DNA of 64,000 nucleotides from Flavobacterium sp. ENC (GTDB taxonomy: Bacteria > Bacteroidota > Bacteroidia > Flavobacteriales > Flavobacteriaceae). The stretch's first letter is position 1; each line of letters starts with the position of its first letter. The notes below the pieces were generated by a model, which was given only the letters and a program-made list of their open reading frames with translations, searched no databases and was not told the origin of the DNA. The stretch spans positions 434,001-498,000 of the forward strand of contig NZ_JAJMOY010000002.1 of assembly GCF_020991415.1 (NCBI RefSeq). The letters run 5' to 3'. The position numbers and the translations under genes were made by a program. Of this stretch, positions 1 through 10,166 are shown one piece after another.

Positions 1-101
1 CATTGGGCCCAAATAGTTGATCTGGATCAATTGAATTTCTTGTTTTAAGTCATCTTCCCGAAGCCTTTTTTGAAAGTAACTTTGTAAAAAATAAAGTACT
101 T

Positions 102-1202
102 ATGAATTCTCAAAAATTACCAATACAGGAAACAGCAGGCAATATCGCGTTGGTGGTAGGGGCAACCGGTATCTCCGGAAGTAATCTTGCAACAAAACTG
201 CTGGAAAAAGGATGGACTGTCTTTGGACTTTCCCGTAATCCGAAAAGTGATACCCAAGGTTTAATTCCGGTTGCCGCTGATTTGCTTAATACCGAATCAT
301 TAACGGCGGCCTTAAAGAATATTGCGCCTACACATGTTTTTTTTACGACCTGGATGCGAAAGGATACCGAAGACGAAAATATCAGGGTCAATAGCGCCAT
401 GGTTCGAAATGTACTGGACGTGTTATCTCCTAAAAAATCCGTACAACATGTTTCTTTGGTAACGGGTTTAAAACATTATTTAGGGCCCTTTGACGCTTAT
501 GCCAAAAGCGGAACTTTACCGGAAACTCCGTTAAGGGAAGAACAGCCGCGATTAGACCTGCCAAATTTTTATTACGCTCAGGAAGATGAAGTGTATGAAG
601 CTGCTGCGCGTGATGGCTTTAGCTGGAATGTACACCGCCCGCATACTTTGATTGGAAAAACGATCGGGAATGCGATGAATCTCGGAACTACATTAGCGGT
701 TTACGCGACGATCTGCAAACAGGAAGGAACTCCGTTTGTATGGCCGGGTTCAGAAGCACAATGGAACGGGGTCTCTGATGTTACGGATGCCAAAATCCTG
801 GCCGATCAGATTATATGGGCTGCAATTACTCCTGAAGCCCACAATCAGGCTTTTAATACCGCTAATGGAGATGTTTTTCGCTGGAAATGGCTTTGGCCAA
901 AGATTGCAGAATGGTTTCAGATTGAATTTGAAGGGTACAGCGGGACGATTCAGCCACTGGAAACAGTACTAAATACCAAACATGAAAGCTGGCGTACCAT
1001 CACAAAAGAAAACCATTTAATTGAAGGAAATCTGGATCAGCTAGCATCGGCATGGCATACGGATCTTGATTTAGGGCGTCCGCTGGAAGTGATGACTGAT
1101 ATGTCAGGAAGCAGAAAATTAGGGTTTACGGGGTATAAGGATACTAGAGATTCGTTTTTTGAATTATTTGAGAGGTTAAGAAACGATAGAATAATTCCCT
1201 GA
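102..1202 (+). CDS. PRISE-like SDR family NAD(P)-dependent reductase
   Basis: A 366-residue Rossmann-fold protein. The nucleotide-binding loop GATGISG lies at residues 20-26. A TGLKHY segment near residue 124 and a NFYYAQED segment near residue 157 match the Lys and Tyr positions of the progesterone 5-beta-reductase/iridoid synthase-like (PRISE) branch of the extended SDRs, which reduce enones with NAD(P)H. The length fits the family. The physiological substrate in bacteria is generally unknown; reduction of an activated alkene is an inference. The gene stands alone, with AT-rich repeats downstream. The ATG at 102 is the first start in frame and precedes the Rossmann strand by about 14 residues. 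Confidence 0.85.
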   Translation: MNSQKLPIQETAGNIALVVGATGISGSNLATKLLEKGWTVFGLSRNPKSDTQGLIPVAADLLNTESLTAALKNIAPTHVFFTTWMRKDTEDENIRVNSAMVRNVLDVLSPKKSVQHVSLVTGLKHYLGPFDAYAKSGTLPETPLREEQPRLDLPNFYYAQEDEVYEAAARDGFSWNVHRPHTLIGKTIGNAMNLGTTLAVYATICKQEGTPFVWPGSEAQWNGVSDVTDAKILADQIIWAAITPEAHNQAFNTANGDVFRWKWLWPKIAEWFQIEFEGYSGTIQPLETVLNTKHESWRTITKENHLIEGNLDQLASAWHTDLDLGRPLEVMTDMSGSRKLGFTGYKDTRDSFFELFERLRNDRIIP

Positions 1203-1350
1203 TTTAATTAGATAATTGGAAAATGAGATAATTTGAAAATGAGATAATTAGATAATTGGAAATGAGATAATTAGAAAATGAGATAATTGGATAATTAGAT
1301 AATTGGAAATGAGATAATTGGAAAGTGAAATAACTAGATAATTAGATCTG
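1203..1350. repeat. AT-rich minisatellite of GATAATT-type units
   Basis: Irregular tandem copies of units such as GAGATAATTAGATAATTGG and GAAAATGAGATAATT fill the DNA directly after the reductase stop codon. Units vary in length, so this is a degenerate low-complexity array and not a regular satellite. No ORF of note runs through it. Confidence 0.8.
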
Positions 1351-1365
1351 GAGTGTAATCAAAAA

Positions 1366-1433
1366 CAGTGTCCGGCTGAGCGGAGTCGAAGCCCTTTATG
1401 TAAAAAATGCCTTTGACTTCGCTCAGGGCAACA
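1366..1433. repeat. Interspersed imperfect palindrome (CTGAGCGGAGTCGAAG family)
   Basis: The left arm reads CTGAGCGGAGTCGAAG and the right arm is a mutated reverse complement (CTTTGACTTCGCTCAG). A second, cleaner copy of the same element lies at 10370-10437. REP/MITE-like small palindromes of this kind are typical of flavobacterial intergenic DNA. Confidence 0.75.
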
Positions 1434-1539
1434 ATCAGCTAATTTAAAGAACTCTGCTATTTGATAATTAGACAACATATATTATTTTGTTATTTGATAA
1501 TTTATAACACTTTGCGATAACATCTTAAATTTAATGAAT

Positions 1540-1577
1540 AAAAAACGGGACAAAGAAGTTTTTCTTTGTCCCGTTTT
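1540..1577 (-). terminator. Strong, bidirectional-looking intrinsic terminator
   Basis: Perfect hairpin with arms AAAAACGGGACAAAGAA and TTCTTTGTCCCGTTTTT around a short loop. It lies just beyond the stop codon of the minus-strand amidoligase-like gene, and the A/T tracts on both sides allow termination in both directions. Confidence 0.9.
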
Positions 1578-1595
1578 TGTATTTTTTGGATAGAT

Positions 1596-3137
1596 TTAAT
1601 TATCGCAGAACGAACCGATTTGCTGTAAATGTCTTTCAGTCTGATATTTATTGAAGTTGTCCCATTTTGGAGGGAAACTTGCTTTTTGTCCGTACATCGC
1701 ATCCACGCAGACATTGTTGTCCTTGTACTTGTCATGTAAAACAGCCAGGATTTTAAAGAAAAATTCATCGAGCATGGTGATGGCTTCAAATTCTGATTGT
1801 AGCGTGCTGTAATTAGAATCTGAGGGATTTAACAGTTGCAGTAAATCCAAAAGCTCTTTCTTTTCCTCTTCATTGATTTCAGTGGCGTAACCCATTTTTA
1901 AGGTTTTAAAAACCAGGTTATTCCACGCTTTGCTGTCGTGTCCCCACTGCACATCAGGCAGGTTTAAGGAATGCTCGCAAATCAGAATAATGGAGAAAAG
2001 AACATCGTTTAAATACTCCGCCGGGAATTCGTCAAAACTTCTGAATTCGAAACCGCTCTGGTACATTTTTTCCTGATTAAAATCAAGTCCCACTTCCGAA
2101 AGCATTTCATATTCCATGTCGGCTTCAATCTGATCGCGCCACCAAATGTTTTCTTCTTTTTCAAATTTCAGCAGTTTTCTGAAATCGTCTACCTTGTAAG
2201 TTAGGATTTTGCCTTTTGGCATTGCCTTATTGTAGGTTCCTACGCCAATGTAACGGGACATGGCATTTCTCATGGAACCCAAAGTGAATTTTTTGTCTAA
2301 GCTGTATTTATCACTGATCACGCCCATAATATCAGGACTTCCGAGCGTGGCTATGAAAAAAGGCTCAAACCATTGTAATAAATAAATGGCGTTGGCATGG
2401 GTTTTTTCAAATTCATTGTAATCCACAATTCTGCTGTCTTCCGTTAATGACGGTAAGGTAATATGAAAATGGTACGTTCCGTTATTGAACAACACCAGGT
2501 TTTCCTGATTCGTCATAAACATATTCAGGCCGTTATTGTAATCCGGAAAATTTAATTTTCCGTTGAGCACAGACGATTCGTTGATTTTATCCAGAAACAG
2601 TTTTTTGGTCGCTTTCAGTTCTTTGCAGGAATCAGCAATGGTTCTGTTTTCAAAATATTTGGTTACAAATTCGATCGAATCACCATCAAAATGTACGGAT
2701 CCCATCGTTTTGTTTCTTTGGGTAATCATGCTCTGAATGTTGTACGGCTGATCTTCCAGGAAAAGTTCCATAATCGATTTGCCCAGGTACTCCGGATTTT
2801 CAAGCGGTTGTGCAATCGTCTCACCACTTTCCGTATCGATTAATGGTTTTATCGGCGATAACGTTTTGTGCTGATAATTGATATCGAGCTTTTCCAGCGA
2901 ATGACTGTTCATCATCCGGCTTACTTTATAGCTTTCCGTCAGGTTAAAAGCTTTTTTCAGCATAGGAGCCAGGCTTTCGGGTTTATAGCATTTTCTGTAG
3001 TCAATACTATATTTCTCAAAGCCAATTTTTTCTTGTATAAATTCACCAGAAACTATCAGGGGTTCTTCAAACTGCATGTAGGTTTCGTTTTCCAATCCTA
3101 TTCCCCAATAATATTTTTTTGTCTGATTGTCTTTCAT
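1596..3137 (-). CDS. Amidoligase-like (glutamine synthetase/GCS-fold) protein
   Basis: A 513-residue soluble protein with no signal peptide. It opens with WGIGLENETY (residues 11-20; E16 and E18), like the metal/ATP-binding G-x-E-x-E strand of glutamate-cysteine ligase and related COOH-NH2 ligases. An HFHITLP segment (H222, H224) follows, then LLQWFEPFFIATLGSPD and an MSRYIGVGTY segment, in the order seen in amidoligase-type proteins. That family makes amide bonds between a carboxylate and an amine using ATP; substrate unknown. Upstream on the same strand are a papain/NlpC-like protein and an acidic repeat protein, which suggests peptide or protein modification. The fold assignment rests on motif memory and the role is inference. 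A strong terminator follows the gene. Confidence 0.6.
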   Translation of the reverse strand: MKDNQTKKYYWGIGLENETYMQFEEPLIVSGEFIQEKIGFEKYSIDYRKCYKPESLAPMLKKAFNLTESYKVSRMMNSHSLEKLDINYQHKTLSPIKPLIDTESGETIAQPLENPEYLGKSIMELFLEDQPYNIQSMITQRNKTMGSVHFDGDSIEFVTKYFENRTIADSCKELKATKKLFLDKINESSVLNGKLNFPDYNNGLNMFMTNQENLVLFNNGTYHFHITLPSLTEDSRIVDYNEFEKTHANAIYLLQWFEPFFIATLGSPDIMGVISDKYSLDKKFTLGSMRNAMSRYIGVGTYNKAMPKGKILTYKVDDFRKLLKFEKEENIWWRDQIEADMEYEMLSEVGLDFNQEKMYQSGFEFRSFDEFPAEYLNDVLFSIILICEHSLNLPDVQWGHDSKAWNNLVFKTLKMGYATEINEEEKKELLDLLQLLNPSDSNYSTLQSEFEAITMLDEFFFKILAVLHDKYKDNNVCVDAMYGQKASFPPKWDNFNKYQTERHLQQIGSFCDN

Positions 3138-3565
3138 TTATACTTACTTTCTTTTTTAAGGTTAATTATAATTTTTAAAGCATTATTTCATTTGAAGATA
3201 CAAATCCGCGTTACCATTAGAGACAGGAAACCTGTAATGGATGAAGCACCTTGCTGCCTCCATTATAAAAGTTTTCGTTTACTTTTAAAAATATAGGAAT
3301 TTGTATTTTAGAAATTTCGCACTTTTTATCGACGGAAAGATCAAATAAGGAGTAAAATTTTATAATAAGGCTATAAAATCACCAGTGTTATTAATCGCTT
3401 TTGTATCAATAATTTAAGCAAGGGAACGGCTAAATCACAACTTTTGCTGTTCTTGTTTTTTCTAAGTTGCAAAAGTAGTTTTTTATTATCGTATTTCCAA
3501 GTAGTTAACTCGTTGATAATCAATATTTTTTTTTGAATGTTGAAACCATCCGGTGAATTGTATTT
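3138..3565. other. 428-base gap between amidoligase-like and papain-like genes
   Basis: AT-rich DNA with no convincing ORF. The part just upstream of the amidoligase-like gene probably carries its own promoter, because the gap is too long for simple translational coupling, but no clean TAnnTTTG element was identified. Confidence 0.4.
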
Positions 3566-4303
3566 TTATTCGTGGTAATAAAACACATAAGAGGAATACA
3601 GTTCATCATTCCACCAGTCTTTTCTGACCTCCGAAAAGTAATTGTAATTCAGTTTTCCCGCCTGCGACTGCAGCGGATACACCACAACACCATTTTCACG
3701 GTACGCCTGATGCAGCTCGGTTTCAGGAACCACGGGAACAATATGTCCGGAGAGTCCTTTTTCCCTTCTTTTGGCGCAGATTATACCAATTCCGCCATGG
3801 GTATTTACCTTCTGCTGAATTTCATCAGCGGTAAACATTCTTTCCCAGCCAAAATTAGGTCCCCATTCTAAAAACCAGTCGTGTATGGCACTGGAATAGA
3901 TTCGGTCTACGGTTTGTTCAAAAACGGCTTCTACATCCTGTCCCTGCAGAATTTTTTCCAGCGATTCGGGCGTCCACCAGACTGTTGGGACATATACTTG
4001 GGTAAAATAACAATAATCATAAGAGTAGACATTGCAATAGGTATCTTCTACAGTTCTTTGATATCTAAGACTGGTTTCCACGTCCAGTTTATCAATAATC
4101 CGGGCAATACTTTCTTTTTTGCTGGCGGTGTCTGTCAGGTTCCGGTAAGGAATGGTCGCATCCATTAGCGGTTTTTCTTTCATTTCCATAGAATCCAGCC
4201 GCGATTCCGGATCCGGCAACAAATCGGCTTTCTTAATTTGAATATTCGATAGTGTATGATCATCTAAGGGTAACGATGCTACTGATACAGTATGTTTTTC
4301 CAT
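3566..4303 (-). CDS. Papain/NlpC-like cysteine hydrolase-type protein
   Basis: A 245-residue protein not recognised by name. After a polar N-terminal 75 residues comes TYCNVYSYDYCYF (C90, N91, C98) and then VPTVWWTPESLE. Further on is WGPNFGW (about 147-153), a GGIGIICAK strand and SGHIVPVVPE (H187, E194). The order Cys-Asn-x-Tyr, Gly-rich strand, Gly-His-Ile is what NlpC/P60 and other papain-fold amidases show, so C90 and H187 are candidate catalytic residues. No signal peptide is visible, so cytoplasmic action is likely. It sits between an acidic repeat protein and an amidoligase-like gene, all co-oriented. It could be a protease, transamidase or amidase acting on the same peptide; this is inference. 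Confidence 0.5.
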   Translation of the reverse strand: MEKHTVSVASLPLDDHTLSNIQIKKADLLPDPESRLDSMEMKEKPLMDATIPYRNLTDTASKKESIARIIDKLDVETSLRYQRTVEDTYCNVYSYDYCYFTQVYVPTVWWTPESLEKILQGQDVEAVFEQTVDRIYSSAIHDWFLEWGPNFGWERMFTADEIQQKVNTHGGIGIICAKRREKGLSGHIVPVVPETELHQAYRENGVVVYPLQSQAGKLNYNYFSEVRKDWWNDELYSSYVFYYHE

Positions 4304-4478
4304 CTTGACTGCTTAAAAATTAATTGGCCTGACGCTGCTGAATTGATTGTTTATACAGCGTAATTTGGTTAGCCAGCAGGTAAATGTAAGGATTTTAAGT
4401 TTCTAAAGAGTTTTAGAAAAAGACAAATTACAGAAAAAAATGTGATTTATGTACTTGTTTTGCCGCGTTTAAATACGA

Positions 4479-4508
4479 AAAAAGGCCTACTGTTACGTAC
4501 GCCTTTTT
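4479..4508 (-). terminator. Intrinsic terminator after the acidic repeat gene
   Basis: Arms AAAAAGGC (4479-4486) and GCCTTTTT (4501-4508) with a 14-base loop that can pair further through TAC/GTA. Read on the minus strand it follows the acidic gene's stop codon and ends in a T tract, so much of the transcription of that gene should stop before the papain-like gene. Confidence 0.75.
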
Positions 4509-4544
4509 GATTTTGAAACTATAATTATTTACGAATCTACTCTT

Positions 4545-4916
4545 TTATACTTCCTCTTCCTCATCTTCATTGTTGATCACATCGTCATCATCATTGGTAA
4601 TCGACTCGTCCCCCGGATCATTTTCTGATCTGACGTCTGAATGGTTTTCAGATTCAGTCGGTGTGATTTCCATCTCTTTGATGAATTCCTCCTGATAGTT
4701 ATACGGATCTTCGTCCTTTGCATAATTATCAGGATCAACGGGTGTATTCTGATCTATATAATCAGGATCACTCGCTCCGAATTCGGGTATTTGTTCTGTA
4801 TTTGTTTTATGTCTGAACTGATCTTCGCTTTCAATTGTATTTCCATCAACCAGCGTATTTTGATCAATAAAATCAGGATCTGTGTGACCGTATTCGTTGC
4901 TGTTTTGCTTTTCCAT
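4545..4916 (-). CDS. Highly acidic small protein with internal duplication
   Basis: A 123-residue, very acidic, low-hydrophobicity protein with no signal peptide. Two copies of a roughly 27-residue unit start at residues 8 and 45, 37 residues apart; both contain D-P-D-[FY]-I-D-Q-N-T-[LP]-V-D. The C-terminal third is almost purely Asp/Glu/Asn (DDDDVINNEDEEEEV). Such a protein is probably unstructured. The adjacent amidoligase-like and papain-like genes make a substrate or peptide-precursor role conceivable, with the conserved DPD-IDQNT unit as the modified core, but nothing in the sequence proves modification. Alternative: an acidic stress or ion-binding protein. It has its own -7 promoter element and terminator. 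Confidence 0.65.
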   Translation of the reverse strand: MEKQNSNEYGHTDPDFIDQNTLVDGNTIESEDQFRHKTNTEQIPEFGASDPDYIDQNTPVDPDNYAKDEDPYNYQEEFIKEMEITPTESENHSDVRSENDPGDESITNDDDDVINNEDEEEEV

Positions 4917-5313
4917 GACGCTGTTTTTTTTAAATTAATTATATTTTTCTTCTGAAATAAGCCGATCCTATTTTTTCCAAAGAAATACGATTCGGAATTA
5001 TTCTTAAAGCTTGTATTACAAATTTACCGAGAGATCTTTCTGATTTATTATAGAAAAATAAATTATAGTTGCATAATTTATAGGTGTTTATGCGAAAAAT
5101 AATCGTAAATTCACGCTATTTCTTCTGTTTGGAAAAACGCATTCCAATTCGAACCGCATACTGCTTATCATTTTAAACCTCAGACCTTTCCGACGAAATG
5201 CTTCACCGTATCTGCAACGGCTGCTGTTGTTAAATTTTAGGGCAGCGTTCGAATTTTCTTATTTTGGAGAGAATAAAACAATAACAATCAACGTTCTTAA
5301 ACAAAACTATATT
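4917..5313. other. Divergent intergenic region before the MreB paralogue
   Basis: Holds the minus-strand promoter at 5019-5026. The plus-strand part (5100-5313) must carry the promoter of the MreB-like gene, but no exact TAnnTTTG was found there. An in-frame ATG-less extension of the MreB frame runs back to 5227 and is judged non-coding. Confidence 0.4.
5019..5026 (-). promoter_or_regulatory. -7 element (TAAATTTG) for the acidic repeat gene
   Basis: On the minus strand this reads TAAATTTG, an exact match to the Bacteroidetes -7 consensus TAnnTTTG, about 100 bases upstream of the acidic gene's ATG. No clear -33 TTTG partner was seen. Confidence 0.5.
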
Positions 5314-6342
5314 ATGGGCTTATTTGATTTTATGATAGTGGAAATAGCTATGGATTTGGGAACCGCGAATACTTTGATCATTTACGATGGAAAAATCGTA
5401 GTAGATAGTCCTTCCATTGTGGCCAGGGACATTAGAAACGGGAAAATTATCGCGGTAGGCCAGGAGGCCAGTTTGATGCAGGGTAAGACACACGAGAATA
5501 TTAAAACCATCCGTCCGCTTAAAGACGGGGTAATTGCAGATTTTGATGCTTCTGAAAAAATGATCAGCTGGTTTATCAAAAATATACCGCAGATCAAGAA
5601 AAACTTTTTTACGCCCGCACTGCGAATGGTCGTTTGTATCCCCAGCGGCATTACCGAGGTGGAAATGCGAGCGGTAAAAGAATCCTGCGAACGCGTAAAC
5701 GGAAAGGAAGTGTTCTTAATTCATGAGCCTATGGCCGCTGCTATCGGAATTGGTCTGGATGTGATGCAGCCGAAAGGAAACATCATCGTGGATATTGGCG
5801 GAGGAACTACGGAAATTGCGGTTATTGCACTTGGAGGAATCATTTGCGATAAATCGATAAAAATTGCCGGTGATGTTTTTACCAACGATATCCTGTATTA
5901 TATGCGAACACACCATAACTTGTATATTGGGGAAGGTTCTGCCGAACGAATAAAAATTGAGGTCGGTGCCGCAACGGAAGACCTCGAGGACGCACCTGAA
6001 GATATAAACGTGCGCGGAAGGGATTTGCTTACCGGAAAACCTAAAGAGGTACGGGTGAGCTTCAGGGAAATTGCAAAAGCACTGGACAAATCCATACAGC
6101 GAATTGAAGATGCCATTATGGTAACGCTTTCCGTAACACCGCCGGAACTGGCTGCCGATATTTACAATACGGGATTGTACCTGGCAGGAGGAGGCGCCAT
6201 GCTGCGTGGTCTTGATAAAAGGCTGTCACAGAAAACGGAATTACCCGTCTATATTGCAGAAGATCCTTTGAGAGCCGTTGTAAGAGGCACAGGTATTGTC
6301 TTAAAAGATATTGTGAAGTATAAAAGTGTACTGGTGAAATAG
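5314..6342 (+). CDS. mreB: MreB/Mbl-family actin-like rod-shape protein (paralogue)
   Basis: A 342-residue actin-fold protein, full family length. It has the phosphate-1 loop DLGTANT (14-20), MQGKTHENIKTIRPLKDG, PSGITEVE, the phosphate-2 loop DIGGGTTE and the adenosine motif YLAGGGAML near residue 290. MreB polymerises on ATP under the inner membrane and guides lateral wall synthesis. The start chosen is MGLFDFM, which matches the usual flavobacterial MreB N-terminus; the frame is open 29 codons further upstream, without family similarity. No mreC, mreD or pbp gene follows, so this is probably a second, stand-alone MreB beside the main operon copy, possibly with an altered role or expression. 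Tandem repeats follow immediately. Confidence 0.9.
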   Translation: MGLFDFMIVEIAMDLGTANTLIIYDGKIVVDSPSIVARDIRNGKIIAVGQEASLMQGKTHENIKTIRPLKDGVIADFDASEKMISWFIKNIPQIKKNFFTPALRMVVCIPSGITEVEMRAVKESCERVNGKEVFLIHEPMAAAIGIGLDVMQPKGNIIVDIGGGTTEIAVIALGGIICDKSIKIAGDVFTNDILYYMRTHHNLYIGEGSAERIKIEVGAATEDLEDAPEDINVRGRDLLTGKPKEVRVSFREIAKALDKSIQRIEDAIMVTLSVTPPELAADIYNTGLYLAGGGAMLRGLDKRLSQKTELPVYIAEDPLRAVVRGTGIVLKDIVKYKSVLVK

Positions 6343-6465
6343 TTTTCAGTCTCAGTTTTCAGTCTCAGTTTTCAGTCTCAGTTTTCAGTCTCAGTCTTAA
6401 GTCTCAGTCTTCAGTCTCAGTATTCAGTCTCAGTATTCAGTCTCAGTTTTACTGGGACTGAATAC
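6343..6465. repeat. Tandem TTTTCAGTCTCAG-type units
   Basis: About nine consecutive copies of a unit close to TTTTCAGTCTCAG with third-position variants (TCTTAAG, TATTCAG), starting four bases after the mreB stop. The array then runs into reverse-complement units (ACTGGGACTG, ACTGAGACTG), so the transcript can fold into a long hairpin. Confidence 0.85.
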
Positions 6466-6690
6466 TGAGACTGCGACTAAACTAACCACAAAGATCGGAA
6501 ACTGGGACTGAAAACTGCGACTGCGACTAAACTAACCACAAAGATCGGAAACTGCGACTGCAAACTGCGACTGCGACTAAACTAACCGCAAAGATCGGAA
6601 ACTGGGACTGAAAACTGCGACTGCGACTAAACTAACCACAAAGATCGGAAACTGCGACTGCAAACTGCGACTGTGACTAAAAACCGGGAC
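6466..6690. repeat. 50-base tandem repeat with a 100-base super-period
   Basis: Four copies of a 50-base unit; the anchor ACTAACC[AG]CAAAGATCGG begins at 6481, 6531, 6581 and 6631. Units alternate between ACTGGGACTGAAAACTG and ACTGCGACTGCAAACTG, giving a higher-order period of 100 bases. The array separates convergent genes (mreB and the dioxygenase). Confidence 0.85.
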
Positions 6691-6696
6691 TAAAAA

Positions 6697-7635
6697 TTAA
6701 TTAATCTTCACCAAATGGGCTTCAATGGCAGCTCTGTCTGATTCATATTGTGCCGGAAGTTTTAAGTTCTGACCTAATTCTTCTAAAGCCTCGTCCACGG
6801 TGAATCCGGGGTTTTCTGTAGCGATTTCGAACAAAACACCGCCCGGTTCTCTAAAATAAAGCGAGTGGAAATACTGTCTGTCAATCTGTGGGGTAATAGA
6901 TAACCCGTAGGCTTCGATTTTTTCACGGAAGTGCATCAGAATTTCATCATTTTGCACGCGGAAAGCAACGTGGTGCACCGATCCGTTGGCCACATGGCCG
7001 CGTTTTTCTTCTGCCAGCTCTACCAGGTCCACAATAGCAGCATTTTCTACGGCGTCTGTTGCGTAGCGGTAACGGTTTACGTCCTGATCAATCAGTTTAT
7101 ATCCAAAGATATCGGTTAGGATCGCAGCAGTAGCTTTGATACTGTTTAAGGTCAAGGTGATATTGTGAAAACCTCTTGTTGCCACATCAGCTTTTACTTC
7201 ATCAGTTTCCCAGGCTTTTCTGTTGTCTTCTTTTTTAGATTCGATTAACTCTAGTTTCAGCCCGTCCGGATCTAAGAAAGTCAGGTATTTTTCCCCGAAT
7301 TTTTCAGCCGGTTTGTTGTAGATTACATTGTATTTTTCAAAACGTGCCTGCCAGAAATCAAGACTTCCTTTTGGAACGGAATAACCAATTTCTGTTGCCA
7401 TTCCGGAGCCCTTTCTTCCTTGCTGGATGCCTTCTCCCCAAGGGAAAAAAGTTAAGATCGTTCCGGCACTTCCCACTTCGTCACCAAAGTAAAAATGGTA
7501 GGTTCCCGGATCGTCAAAATTCACTGTTTTTTTAATGAATCGCAATCCTAATATGTTGGAGTAAAAGTTGAAATTACGTTTGGCGTCACCTGCAATCGCA
7601 GTAATATGGTGTAAGCCTAAAATTTTATTTTCCAT
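6697..7635 (-). CDS. Ring-cleaving dioxygenase-type VOC protein (MhqO/MhqA-like)
   Basis: 312 residues forming two vicinal-oxygen-chelate modules. Module one starts at GLHHITAIAGD (H9/H10); module two starts near RGFHNITL (about 155) and contains VHHVAFRV (about 220) and LFEIATENPGF (about 270), which supply the usual His/His/Glu metal site. This length and the WGEGIQQGRKGSG segment fit the hydroquinone/catechol-type extradiol dioxygenases related to Bacillus MhqO, which act in quinone detoxification. Its promoter is a near copy of that of the chloroperoxidase-like gene at 22529-23347, and it is divergent from a GAF/sigma-54 activator. Substrate not provable from sequence. Confidence 0.88.
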   Translation of the reverse strand: MENKILGLHHITAIAGDAKRNFNFYSNILGLRFIKKTVNFDDPGTYHFYFGDEVGSAGTILTFFPWGEGIQQGRKGSGMATEIGYSVPKGSLDFWQARFEKYNVIYNKPAEKFGEKYLTFLDPDGLKLELIESKKEDNRKAWETDEVKADVATRGFHNITLTLNSIKATAAILTDIFGYKLIDQDVNRYRYATDAVENAAIVDLVELAEEKRGHVANGSVHHVAFRVQNDEILMHFREKIEAYGLSITPQIDRQYFHSLYFREPGGVLFEIATENPGFTVDEALEELGQNLKLPAQYESDRAAIEAHLVKIN

Positions 7636-7673
7636 GGTATTTGATGTATTAAGTTGTTATTGATTTTCTTTTA

Positions 7674-7722
7674 CAAATTTACGGCTGTTATGAATCTGCA
7701 TCGATTAACCTAGATTAAGAAA
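7674..7722 (-). promoter_or_regulatory. Promoter with shared operator, dioxygenase gene
   Basis: Read on the minus strand: TTAATCTAGGTTAATCGA (within 7701-7722), 19 bases, then the -7 element TAAATTTG (7674-7681) followed by TAAAAGAAA. The operator holds a direct repeat TTAATC-TAGG-TTAATC and occupies the -33 position. The same operator, same 19-base spacing and same downstream TAAAAGAAA occur at 23454-23502. Confidence 0.75.
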
Positions 7723-7830
7723 TAAAAAGCCGATACATTTTTTATCGGTAAACAAATAACCAAATAACGTTCCGCTTAGTGTAATGTGTTGTTTATTAGT
7801 ATTTTAAGTGTTCATTGTGGTTTTTGATGA

Positions 7831-7844
7831 TACGATATATCGTA
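7831..7844. promoter_or_regulatory. Palindrome TACGATATATCGTA
   Basis: A perfect 14-base palindrome in the divergent region between the dioxygenase and the sigma-54 activator. Related sites, both followed by AT-rich TAA/TTTA flanks, are at 22097-22110 and 23677-23690. A regulator binding site is an inference. Confidence 0.45.
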
Positions 7845-7953
7845 ATTTTATGCGTCCAAAATGTTATATTTAAAAAATCAATAGTAATTTAATACGGGCT
7901 ATTTCTTAAATTTACGCATTAACCGCATTCAATAGCCCTGCCAATTCGTACTT

Positions 7954-9540
7954 ATGGAAAAACCTGCCGATCAGACTGCAATTATGATGAACAGATTGCA
8001 GGAAAGGGAAAAAGAGCAACTGCTGATCCTGTCGATTTGCAGCGCACTTGCACAGGCTTTGAACAGGGAAGAATTTCATACTGTTGCAGGCGGCCTGCTG
8101 AAAGAACATTTTCAGTTTGATGATTTTATTTTTGCAACGGCGGCTGAAAATGAAACCGTATATCAGGTTTTTTATCACTATTCACAGCAAAAAGCAGCGC
8201 CAAAAAGCTATTCCGTCAACGATGACTTTTTTGCACCCTGTATGGATTCGGCCGATACTGTAGTTTTTGATTTAAAAGCCTCAGCGGACAAAAAGAATCC
8301 TTTTCCGGATTACATCACTACAATAGCAGACAAAGGATTTAAAAACGGAGTAGGGATTTGTCTTCCTTACAGTAAAGGAAATCGCGAAGCCGTTTTTCTG
8401 TTTTTTAAAAATGCGTCGGCTTTCAGCAGAGAAGCAAACCGGATTATTCGCGGTATCGGGATGCAGCTTTCTATTACTGCCCGAAATATTAAGTTGGCAG
8501 AAGAATATAAAGGCCAAATTGCCGAACTGCAGCTTTTGAAAAAGAATTTTACCGAAAAGAAAATACAAACCACTCCTGTAAATACCGAAAGTTTTCACGG
8601 AATTGTCGGCAAAAGTGACGCCATGCAAAAAGTGTATGCCTTAATCAGTCAGGTGGCGGCATCTCCTTCTACTGTCCTGATTTCCGGTGAAACAGGAACT
8701 GGCAAGGAGTTAGTAGCAAGTGCGATTCATATCTTATCGGCAGTTACCAACGAAAAAATGGTTAAAGTCAATTGCGCTTCCATTCCCGCCAATCTGATCG
8801 AAAGTGAATTATTCGGCCATGAAAAAGGGGCTTTTACCGGAGCGACTGATGTAAGAATCGGTAAATTTGAACAGGCAGCTAACGGCACTATTTTTCTGGA
8901 TGAAATAGGAGAGCTGCCCCTGGAATTACAGGGGAAACTGCTTCGGGTTTTGCAGGAAAAAGAAATAGAACGGATCGGTGGTAAAAACACCATCAAAATA
9001 AATGCACGTGTTATCGCTGCAACCAACCGTTCTTTGGAGAAAGAAGTAGCCGAAGGACGCTTCAGAAGTGATTTGTATTACCGCCTCAATGTCTATCCGA
9101 TTCCTTTGCCTGCCTTGCGCGACCGTCCTGAAGATATTGAAATACTGGGAAATTTTTTCCTTGAAAAACATTCCGGTAAAATCGGAAAAAAGATAAAAGG
9201 TTTCTCTAAAAAAGTCCTCAACAGCATGAAGGCCAATGCGTGGCCGGGAAATGTCAGGGAACTGGAAAATATGGTCGAAAGAAGTATTTTGTTTGCCAAA
9301 GAGGACGTTATCAAAGAAATGACTTTTCCGGCAGTTTTTATACCTGAAACAGAGACTCCCGGAAACAATTTTTATCCCAAAACATTACAGGAAGTAGAGA
9401 AAGAGCATATTTTAAAAGTTGTAAAAAAATGCAACGGAAGAATTTCCGGCCCACAGGGAGCTGCTGTTTTATTAGGACTTCCGGGCACCACGCTGATTTC
9501 AAAAATGCAGAAACTGGGGATTAAAAAGAAATATTTCTAA
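7954..9540 (+). CDS. GAF-domain sigma-54-dependent transcriptional activator
   Basis: 528 residues: an N-terminal GAF-like sensor (about 20-175), a linker, an AAA+ sigma-54 interaction domain (about 210-440) with Walker A GETGTGKE (246-253), the sigma-54 loop GAFTGA (292-297), Walker B FLDEIGELPL, and a Fis-type helix-turn-helix at the end. Such enhancer-binding proteins remodel RNA polymerase-sigma-54 in response to a ligand bound by the sensor. The N-terminal sensor lacks a receiver domain, so it should sense a small molecule. It is divergent from the dioxygenase gene and could regulate it, though that promoter looks sigma-A type. A TAaaTTTA near-match to the -7 consensus lies about 40 bases upstream. 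Confidence 0.92.
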   Translation: MEKPADQTAIMMNRLQEREKEQLLILSICSALAQALNREEFHTVAGGLLKEHFQFDDFIFATAAENETVYQVFYHYSQQKAAPKSYSVNDDFFAPCMDSADTVVFDLKASADKKNPFPDYITTIADKGFKNGVGICLPYSKGNREAVFLFFKNASAFSREANRIIRGIGMQLSITARNIKLAEEYKGQIAELQLLKKNFTEKKIQTTPVNTESFHGIVGKSDAMQKVYALISQVAASPSTVLISGETGTGKELVASAIHILSAVTNEKMVKVNCASIPANLIESELFGHEKGAFTGATDVRIGKFEQAANGTIFLDEIGELPLELQGKLLRVLQEKEIERIGGKNTIKINARVIAATNRSLEKEVAEGRFRSDLYYRLNVYPIPLPALRDRPEDIEILGNFFLEKHSGKIGKKIKGFSKKVLNSMKANAWPGNVRELENMVERSILFAKEDVIKEMTFPAVFIPETETPGNNFYPKTLQEVEKEHILKVVKKCNGRISGPQGAAVLLGLPGTTLISKMQKLGIKKKYF

Positions 9541-9548
9541 GCTGATTT

Positions 9549-10166
9549 CTATTCCTGTGGCAGCTTTATTTTTCCCGAAGAAATAGCCCAGAAAACCAAT
9601 AGAAGCATACTGATGGCCAAAGCAATTACAGGAAACCGGAAGGAAATGCCAAACGCAATTATATACGTGGGCAGTCCGTACAAATAATTATTCCTGATTT
9701 TTCTGATGGCTGAATCTGTAATTCCGGGACGTAACAGCTTTTTGTTACGGCTTGCAATGCACCACAACAGATTGTATGAAATATTGATCAGCACAAAGAT
9801 TCCGGTGTAAACCGCAACCGCAATCGAAGCCGCTTCCCCGTTGAAAAAACGTGCGAGTAAAGCAGTCGGATACGATACTGTGGTCACTAGAAAAAGAATC
9901 AGGCCGTTGGCAAACATGATGGCTGTATTGCGGCTGTAAATCTGCTTGAAGATTTTGTGATGATTGACCCACATGATAAAAATACTGAAAAAAGAAAGTG
10001 TAAAAGCAAGATATGTCGTCCATTCACCTTTTAAAAAAGCAAGCAGTTCAGCACCGTTTTTGACCGCAGTGATTTCCGGAGCGTGAAGATCCAACACCAG
10101 AAGCGTAATGGCGATGGCGAAGACGGCATCACTGAAATTCTCTATTCGTACGGTTTCTTTTTCCAT
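9549..10166 (-). CDS. TMEM175-family (DUF1211) potassium channel-like membrane protein
   Basis: 205 residues with about six membrane helices. The first helix carries RIENFSDAVFAIAITLLVLD, containing the FSD filter motif of the TMEM175/DUF1211 family, bacterial members of which are potassium-selective channels. WVNHHKIFKQI follows helix three, as usual. Convergent with the sigma-54 activator (eight bases apart), with no room for a terminator. Full length for a bacterial single-repeat member. Confidence 0.85.
   Translation of the reverse strand: MEKETVRIENFSDAVFAIAITLLVLDLHAPEITAVKNGAELLAFLKGEWTTYLAFTLSFFSIFIMWVNHHKIFKQIYSRNTAIMFANGLILFLVTTVSYPTALLARFFNGEAASIAVAVYTGIFVLINISYNLLWCIASRNKKLLRPGITDSAIRKIRNNYLYGLPTYIIAFGISFRFPVIALAISMLLLVFWAISSGKIKLPQE

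Follow-up and report, generated by a model that had tools for sequence, protein, structure and literature searches.

A strictly linked gene pair of Flavobacterium encoding a predicted GCS-fold amidoligase and a papain-like peptidase of wall-lysin type

In a stretch of 64,000 nucleotides from Flavobacterium sp. ENC (contig NZ_JAJMOY010000002.1, positions 434,001 to 498,000; hereafter the window), two neighbouring minus-strand genes, gene 1 (513 residues) and gene 2 (245 residues), were found to be a strictly linked two-gene module, here in Bacteroidota. The first encodes a predicted amidoligase of the gamma-glutamylcysteine synthetase (GCS) fold and the second a papain-like cysteine peptidase of wall-lysin type by its model and its relatives. 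We tentatively propose, at a probability of roughly 0.4, that the two proteins work in the cytoplasm, as ligase and hydrolase, on gamma-glutamyl bonds in peptides of the cell wall. A preliminary description of the locus had grouped these genes with a third one, gene 3, encoding an acidic protein of 123 residues. The three open reading frames (ORFs) it reported were found again, all on the minus strand, with intergenic gaps of 428 bases between gene 2 and gene 1 and 241 bases between gene 3 and gene 2 (Table 1). The grouping itself did not hold, as the acidic gene is unlinked to either member of the pair.

Table 1. Position and basis of the features of the locus, in window coordinates (motif positions in residues of the gene 1 protein)
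Feature	Position	Strand	Basis
Gene 1, predicted GCS-fold amidoligase, 513 residues	1596-3137	-	ORF, motif signature, invariant residues, weak structure match
Gene 1 motifs	GLENE 14-18, IEFVT 155-159, HFH 223-225, EFRSFD 364-369		alignment of homologues: invariant blocks
Gene 2, papain-like cysteine peptidase with Tse1/Tae1-like fold in its model, wall-lysin type, 245 residues	3566-4303	-	ORF, model, invariant residues, relatives
Gene 3, acidic protein with duplicated DPD-[FY]-IDQNT unit, 123 residues; neighbour outside the pair	4545-4916	-	ORF, homologue alignment
Bacteroidetes-type promoter-like site TTG-N20-TACTTTTG, past the gene 2 stop, pointing to gene 1	3470-3500	-	pattern match
AT-rich leader of gene 1, non-coding and conserved, about 330 nucleotides	3138-3469	-	77% mean column identity, 13 sequences
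Terminator-like inverted repeat, 17 pairs, downstream of gene 1	1541-1578	no strand	terminator scan

Linkage and distribution of the pair

Among 150 related genomes, gene 1 was recovered in 17 and gene 2 in the identical 17, all of the window's genus (P ~1e-22 for the co-occurrence, with no phylogenetic correction). The two genes adjoin in 16 of these genomes, the remaining one (G036) having them on one contig with about 335 kb between them. Three of the 16 (G017, G045 and G070) display a convergent arrangement, with a gene 1 at 36-38% identity and a gene 2 carrying an additional N-terminal SH3b domain (SH3_3, best E 2.5e-9). The same linkage was observed in named-genome records, taken as the best 80 of the 143 relatives found: in 79 of them gene 1 has a co-oriented gene 2 upstream, the copy in L122 being truncated at a contig end; the exception, L075, is a contig that starts merely 246 bases before gene 1. 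A Flavobacterium cupreum contig carries a gene 1 homologue at 99% identity. No other family was as conserved around the pair in these 80 records when ORFs of at least 80 residues were clustered, and the next most frequent neighbour family occurred in 19 of them.

In a further set of 395 genomes sampled from the class, there were 5 holders of gene 1 and 7 of gene 2, with G284 and G319 as the additional two. Consequently, gene 2 can exist without a recognisable gene 1; the reverse was encountered neither in the 150-genome set (0/17) nor in the 395-genome set (0/5). Profiles of gene 1 and gene 2 searched against viral contigs gave 8 and 30 pattern matches respectively, with no relatives among them, and a gene 1 search of phages and plasmids gave no match. 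Transfer of the pair to a gammaproteobacterium was considered for CP034120.1 (L118), a record titled as a Glaciecola amylolytica chromosome with a gene 1 of 75% identity, and was not accepted because the flank of this record shares an aldehyde-dehydrogenase-like gene, recognised by eye, with a Flavobacteriales metagenome-assembled genome (L119) and a Fluviicola record (L131); the Glaciecola title is probably wrong. A mutual exclusion of gene 1 and GCS2, hinted at by 37 same-genus genomes (9 and 11 holders, overlap 0), was likewise dropped, having vanished with the 150 genomes (overlap 3/17 vs 3.5 expected).

Predicted activities of the two proteins

Gene 1 very probably encodes a highly diverged GCS-fold amidoligase, with ATP-dependent ligation as its predicted activity, judging from motifs and from a structural model. 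No significant Pfam or NCBIfam match was obtained for the protein, a sequence search of the PDB was empty up to E 1, and 13 gene 1 members gave no match to the Pfam families Amidoligase_2, GCS2, Glu_cys_ligase and COOH-NH2_lig. An Amidoligase_2 search of 60 genomes was without match but carries no information, the controls being equally silent. PADLOC returned nothing, and PHROGs returned weak matches only (best E 0.011, a gene 1 relative against a function-unknown family). The preliminary description had called the protein amidoligase-like and had named the absence of an amidoligase profile hit as disproof. Such a hit was indeed absent from Pfam and NCBIfam, which we attribute to the limited reach of profiles, and the assignment was upheld through structure and motifs instead.

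An ordered pattern of four motifs (G-x-E-x-E, E-x-x-T, H-x-[HN] and E-x-R-x-x-D) was built on residues that GCS2 and GshA share, which in GshA we take to bind metal and phosphate, a literature search having given no confirmation. The pattern was composed post hoc, with gene 1 already known to us; the test is considered strong nonetheless. The signature was present in 87/87 gene 1 homologues, 14/14 GCS2 proteins and 2/2 GshA proteins and in 0/696 background ORFs, and among 200,000 shuffles of gene 1 none satisfied the strict form and 10 the lax form. It was missing from 5 Amidoligase_2 and 3 COOH-NH2 ligase proteins of LUZ24-like phages. The matches start at residues 25, 67, 148 and 328 in Escherichia coli GshA and at 14, 156, 221 and 364 in gene 1, which has about 100 extra residues separating motifs one and two.

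A de novo model of gene 1 was compared with 171 preselected chains only. Merely 5 PDB entries reached a Z of at least 2, and above Z 2.2 there were only entries of YbdK and GshA: 1tt4 and 1r8g for the former (both Z 6.9, 5.0 Å over 201 and 198 residues respectively) and 2d33 for the latter (Z 5.9, 6.2 Å over 232 residues), each to be read with the mean predicted local distance difference test (pLDDT) of 50.9 for the model. Gene 1 resembles GshA (PF04262) and YbdK/GCS2 (PF04107) in motif order and identity and in weak model matches, and differs from them by the lack of detectable profile similarity and by its pairing with gene 2.

The gene 2 protein is, by its model, of papain-like (clan CA) fold, with a Cys at a helix N-terminus and a His on the following strand. 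The window protein gave no significant match in Pfam or NCBIfam, and the NlpC/P60 profile that the preliminary description had put forward for it was not matched in the Pfam search either; Peptidase_C39_2 was the sole papain-like family to appear (E 0.11, 2/12 members). The model (pLDDT 62.6, residues 1-44 below 50) matched Tse1/Tae1 (4fgi) with a Z of 11.7 (2.7 Å over 126 residues, 20% identity), the next-best fold families, lysins and Tae3, being at Z ~7. Foldseek alone found nothing below 0.001 for gene 2, its best match being Tse1 at E 0.014. Cys90, at the helix start, and His187, on the strand, are invariant in 11 diverse members, as are L211 and the block S213-Q214-A215-G216. The earlier term papain-like was thus borne out by the fold match of the model and by the invariant Cys90 and His187. 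The window form has neither an SH3b domain nor a hydrophobic N-terminus.

Relatives of gene 2 with no neighbouring ligase gene suggest a wall-lysin domain family. A 519-residue protein (L172:556-2112) fuses GH19 (1e-8), SH3_3 (1.3e-5, slightly short of the Pfam cut-off) and a gene-2-like domain, and three others (L173, L174 and L175) combine SH3_3 with this domain. Gene 1 was not found in the whole genomes of the last two, which are G319 and G284 of the class-wide set (L175 and L174 respectively), and no gene-1-like ORF lies beside the domain of L172 and L173 in the 3.6-kb stretches examined. On a viral contig (L176:1924-3615), a holin gene (PF05105 3.1e-12, phrog_199 2.3e-10) and one unassigned gene precede a 220-residue gene-2-like protein, which itself has no Pfam or PHROGs match, and two plasmid records, from Hymenobacter and Azospirillum, also carry the domain. 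An unrooted tree was built from 27 sequences, namely 16 tandem forms out of 78, 4 gene-1-linked forms with SH3b and 7 lone forms; its branch between the lone and the gene-1-linked forms has a support of 1.000. Gene 2 may have been recruited from a lysin, a direction which an unrooted tree does not fix. As a separate observation, the L172 fusion belongs to another Bacteroidota family, appears to be a three-domain wall lysin, and its GH19 part resembles phage endolysins.

Cell-wall peptides as a possible substrate and the alternatives

GCS enzymes make gamma-glutamyl amides and dipeptides. On the hydrolytic side, the respective sources describe Tse1 as cleaving gamma-D-glutamyl-meso-diaminopimelic acid (PMC3391265), YkfC as cutting the gamma-D-glutamyl-diamino acid amide and SH3b-NlpC/P60 enzymes of its kind as serving murein-peptide recycling, probably in the cytoplasm in Bacillus subtilis (PMC2954226), and a homologue of these enzymes in Chlamydia as acting in peptidoglycan recycling (PMC9928106). 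Taken together, these activities lead to our preferred reading, a ligase/hydrolase pair on murein gamma-glutamyl bonds. Hydrolysis of the gamma-D-Glu-diamino acid bond, in murein stem peptides or their breakdown products, would be the task of gene 2 and formation of a gamma-glutamyl amide that of gene 1; the two enzymes, working on the same kind of bond, would jointly recycle or edit the peptide.

A hydropathy test of the N-terminal 45 residues, run on 80 proteins of gene 1 and 78 of gene 2, showed no long hydrophobic stretch. The best 15-residue hydropathy means were 1.05 for gene 1 and 1.15 for gene 2, a value of 2.0 being reached by 74 of 776 ORFs, and a single 19-residue stretch of at least 1.6 occurs in five of the gene 1 proteins. 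Since a hydrophobic N-terminus is lacking, both proteins are presumed to be cytoplasmic. The SH3b-NlpC/P60 enzymes YkfC and AvPCP resemble the gene 2 variants in joining SH3b to a papain-like peptidase and in their probable cytoplasmic site, but gene 2 has no Asp-Cys-Ser, no SH3b in its window form and another gene partner. Gene 2 relatives resemble GH19- and SH3b-containing phage lysins through the GH19-SH3_3 fusion and the holin gene nearby, whereas the window form is stand-alone, chromosomal and beside a ligase-like gene. A phage-lysin-type peptidase brought into the cytoplasm and joined to a new family of GCS-fold ligases, so that gamma-glutamyl bonds of stem peptides would be cut and remade with a different partner, is a fuller scenario that we regard as doubtful.

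Several points weigh against action on cell-wall peptides. The substrate is deduced from the enzyme classes alone, the pair has a patchy distribution, with 17 holders among the 150 related genomes, every one in the window's genus, and no murein-recycling gene stands out among its neighbours in the 80 records. For gene 1, the model is poor (mean pLDDT 50.9, from an alignment of 31 close sequences) and the fold match spans residues 146-511, so that the first motif falls outside. An hhalign comparison of the gene 1 profile, which is shallow (Neff 2), with GCS2, GshA, Amidoligase_2 and COOH-NH2_lig gave no signal above controls: 18 of 47 control alignments outscored GCS2, the best of them, a beta-lactamase-like family as judged by eye, at 49% probability. 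For gene 2, the cysteine stands in the context T-Y-C-N, with neither Asp nor Ser flanking it. The recognition of gamma-D-Glu by NlpC/P60 enzymes is tied to Tyr226, Trp228, Asp237 and Ser239 around Cys238 of YkfC (PMC2954226), so that Y-C-N takes the place of the flanking Asp237 and Ser239.

An unlikely alternative, though the best placed of the others, is that the substrate of the pair is a soluble gamma-glutamyl small molecule, or a conjugate of the glutathionylspermidine or phytochelatin type, rather than wall peptides. The GCS active-site signature of gene 1 would suit it, as GCS enzymes yield gamma-glutamyl dipeptides, and so would the absence of a hydrophobic N-terminus from both proteins. 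The model of gene 2 also matches glutathionylspermidine amidase (2io7, Z 5.8, 3.9 Å over 115 residues) and phytochelatin synthase (2bu3, Z 4.6, 4.9 Å over 138 residues), but these matches are far under that of Tse1 and at best equal to generic papain-fold rows. Wall-lysin architectures among the relatives of gene 2, and the absence of a conserved biosynthetic neighbour (80 records, ORFs of at least 80 residues), also argue for wall peptides over a soluble compound. Glutathionylspermidine synthetase/amidase is built on the same principle, a ligase joining carboxylate and amine being combined with a papain-like amidase, and its gene families are different ones. The combination of an amidoligase and a papain-like amidase is already known, amidoligase-peptidase pairs having reportedly been surveyed by Iyer et al. 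in 2009. Literature searches, with most subscription journals outside their coverage, returned no report of the gene 1/gene 2 pair, and we know of neither a wall-peptide editing route of this sort nor a GCS-class ligase acting on murein. As the family models searched cover neither protein, a strictly conserved pair of many Flavobacterium species is without a name. Should the ligase reading be true, gene 1 would represent a new branch of GCS-fold amidoligases; should action on murein be true, a phage lysin domain would have turned into the metabolic partner of a ligase.

In an improbable reading, gene 2 encodes an antibacterial effector that leaves the cell with no signal peptide, and gene 1 provides immunity by modifying the cell's own wall peptides. 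The nearest fold to gene 2 is that of the type VI effector Tse1, and the two share a Cys at a helix start, a His on a strand and the absence of a signal peptide; Tse1 leaves the cytosol through its secretion system alone, and its known immunity protein is a periplasmic binding protein (PMC3391265). The patchy distribution of the pair and the fact that gene 1 was not seen without gene 2 in the two genome sets would also fit an effector with its immunity gene, and TssC shows a mild excess, with 5 holders among the 17 pair genomes vs 2.0 expected (P 0.03). However, Bacteroidota TssC (PF17541, a single marker family) was not found in the other 12, among them the window's own genome (5.32 Mb, 44 contigs), which weakens the case for a type VI effector. 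Furthermore, gene 1 is long, has a catalytic motif set and no leader, so that the partner of gene 2 is ligase-like where that of Tse1/Tae1 is a small immunity protein, and gene 2 itself differs from these amidases by an identity of about 20% and by about 60 additional N-terminal residues.

PafA and Dop have a GCS-like fold, and the two enzymes could by analogy modify a host protein, one attaching an amino acid or peptide and the other taking it off again. Papain-like enzymes do include deconjugases (PMC10318531), yet no conserved tag protein of at least 80 residues lies near the pair and the relatives of gene 2 are wall lysins, which makes a conjugation of this kind distinctly improbable.

The acidic neighbour, the intergenic region and other features

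Hardly credible is the proposal, made in the preliminary description, of a peptide or protein tag system with the acidic repeat protein as its substrate: the gene of this protein does adjoin the pair in three of the 150 genomes, the window's own included, and the repeat is conserved, but 13 of the 17 genomes with the acidic gene are without the enzymes, 13 of the 17 with the enzymes are without the acidic gene, and no further conserved ORF of at least 80 residues accompanies the pair. The two distributions share only 4 genomes (G000, which is the window's own, G008, G054 and G075) vs 1.9 expected (P = 0.11), the acidic gene of G008 being on a separate contig. These counts leave unsupported the idea that acidic side chains are the substrate of the enzymes; the same description had held that homologues occurring mostly without the enzymes would speak against it, as is the case here. 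Within flanks of at most 5 kb around the pair, the acidic gene was counted in 12 of the 80 named records by clustering and in 13 by tblastn, the latter count taking in a broken match in L082. A tag system or one of ribosomally synthesised and post-translationally modified peptides, with the acidic protein as precursor, was rejected as a general rule on the co-occurrence counts, and no other precursor or tag gene was seen among neighbours of at least 80 residues. The acidic protein is an independent occasional neighbour and plays no part in the module.

The repeat of the acidic protein is real, with cores DPDFIDQNTLVD at residue 13 and DPDYIDQNTPVD at residue 50, a spacing of 37 residues, in a protein with 40 D/E and 6 K/R per 123 residues. 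The duplication is kept in homologues and is thus not due to chance. As an observation on this Flavobacterium family (the window copy and L036-L051), the duplicated unit is DPD-[FY]-I-[DE]-QNT-like, and a C-terminal DFDAEHYPENHPRE-like motif was seen by eye in 12 of 17 homologues, being missing in the window copy and 4 others.

The AT-rich non-coding sequence conserved between gene 2 and gene 1 has a near-constant length of about 430 nucleotides in many Flavobacterium records (3138-3500 in the window), with a TTG-N20-TAnnTTTG site close to where it starts. A pattern TTG-N17..22-TAnnTTTG, after the Bacteroidetes promoter consensus, was matched in 61 of 78 gaps between the two genes vs 1.3 expected from mononucleotide shuffles, mainly at a like distance from gene 2. 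In 9 of the 78 records the gap is reduced to 41-62 nucleotides, stop codon counted, with no promoter-like site, and gene 2 and gene 1 may therefore be one transcription unit there. The leader of gene 1 is not claimed to hold a conserved RNA, since only 3 of 40 predicted pairs displayed a double change; Rfam gave no match to the leader up to E 1.

The terminator that the preliminary description had placed after the acidic gene is an inverted repeat recognised by eye near 4478-4509; it is absent from the list of the terminator scan, which gave 4 sites in total vs 3.0 expected from shuffles. A sub-threshold Rfam match to tpke11 (1533-1603; 31.8 bits, gathering 43, E 0.0005) overlies the terminator-like repeat downstream of gene 1 and is probably the hairpin alone. 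By eye, no phage genes were recognised among the ORFs of window positions 1-10000, with no systematic search made. An MreB-like gene, identified by eye from its sequence, lies immediately past the acidic gene at 5227-6342. Short-period repeat arrays, with units like TTTTCAGTCTCAG and GATAATTAGATAATTGGAAA as judged by eye, occupy two intergenic stretches at 6343-6690 and 1204-1345.

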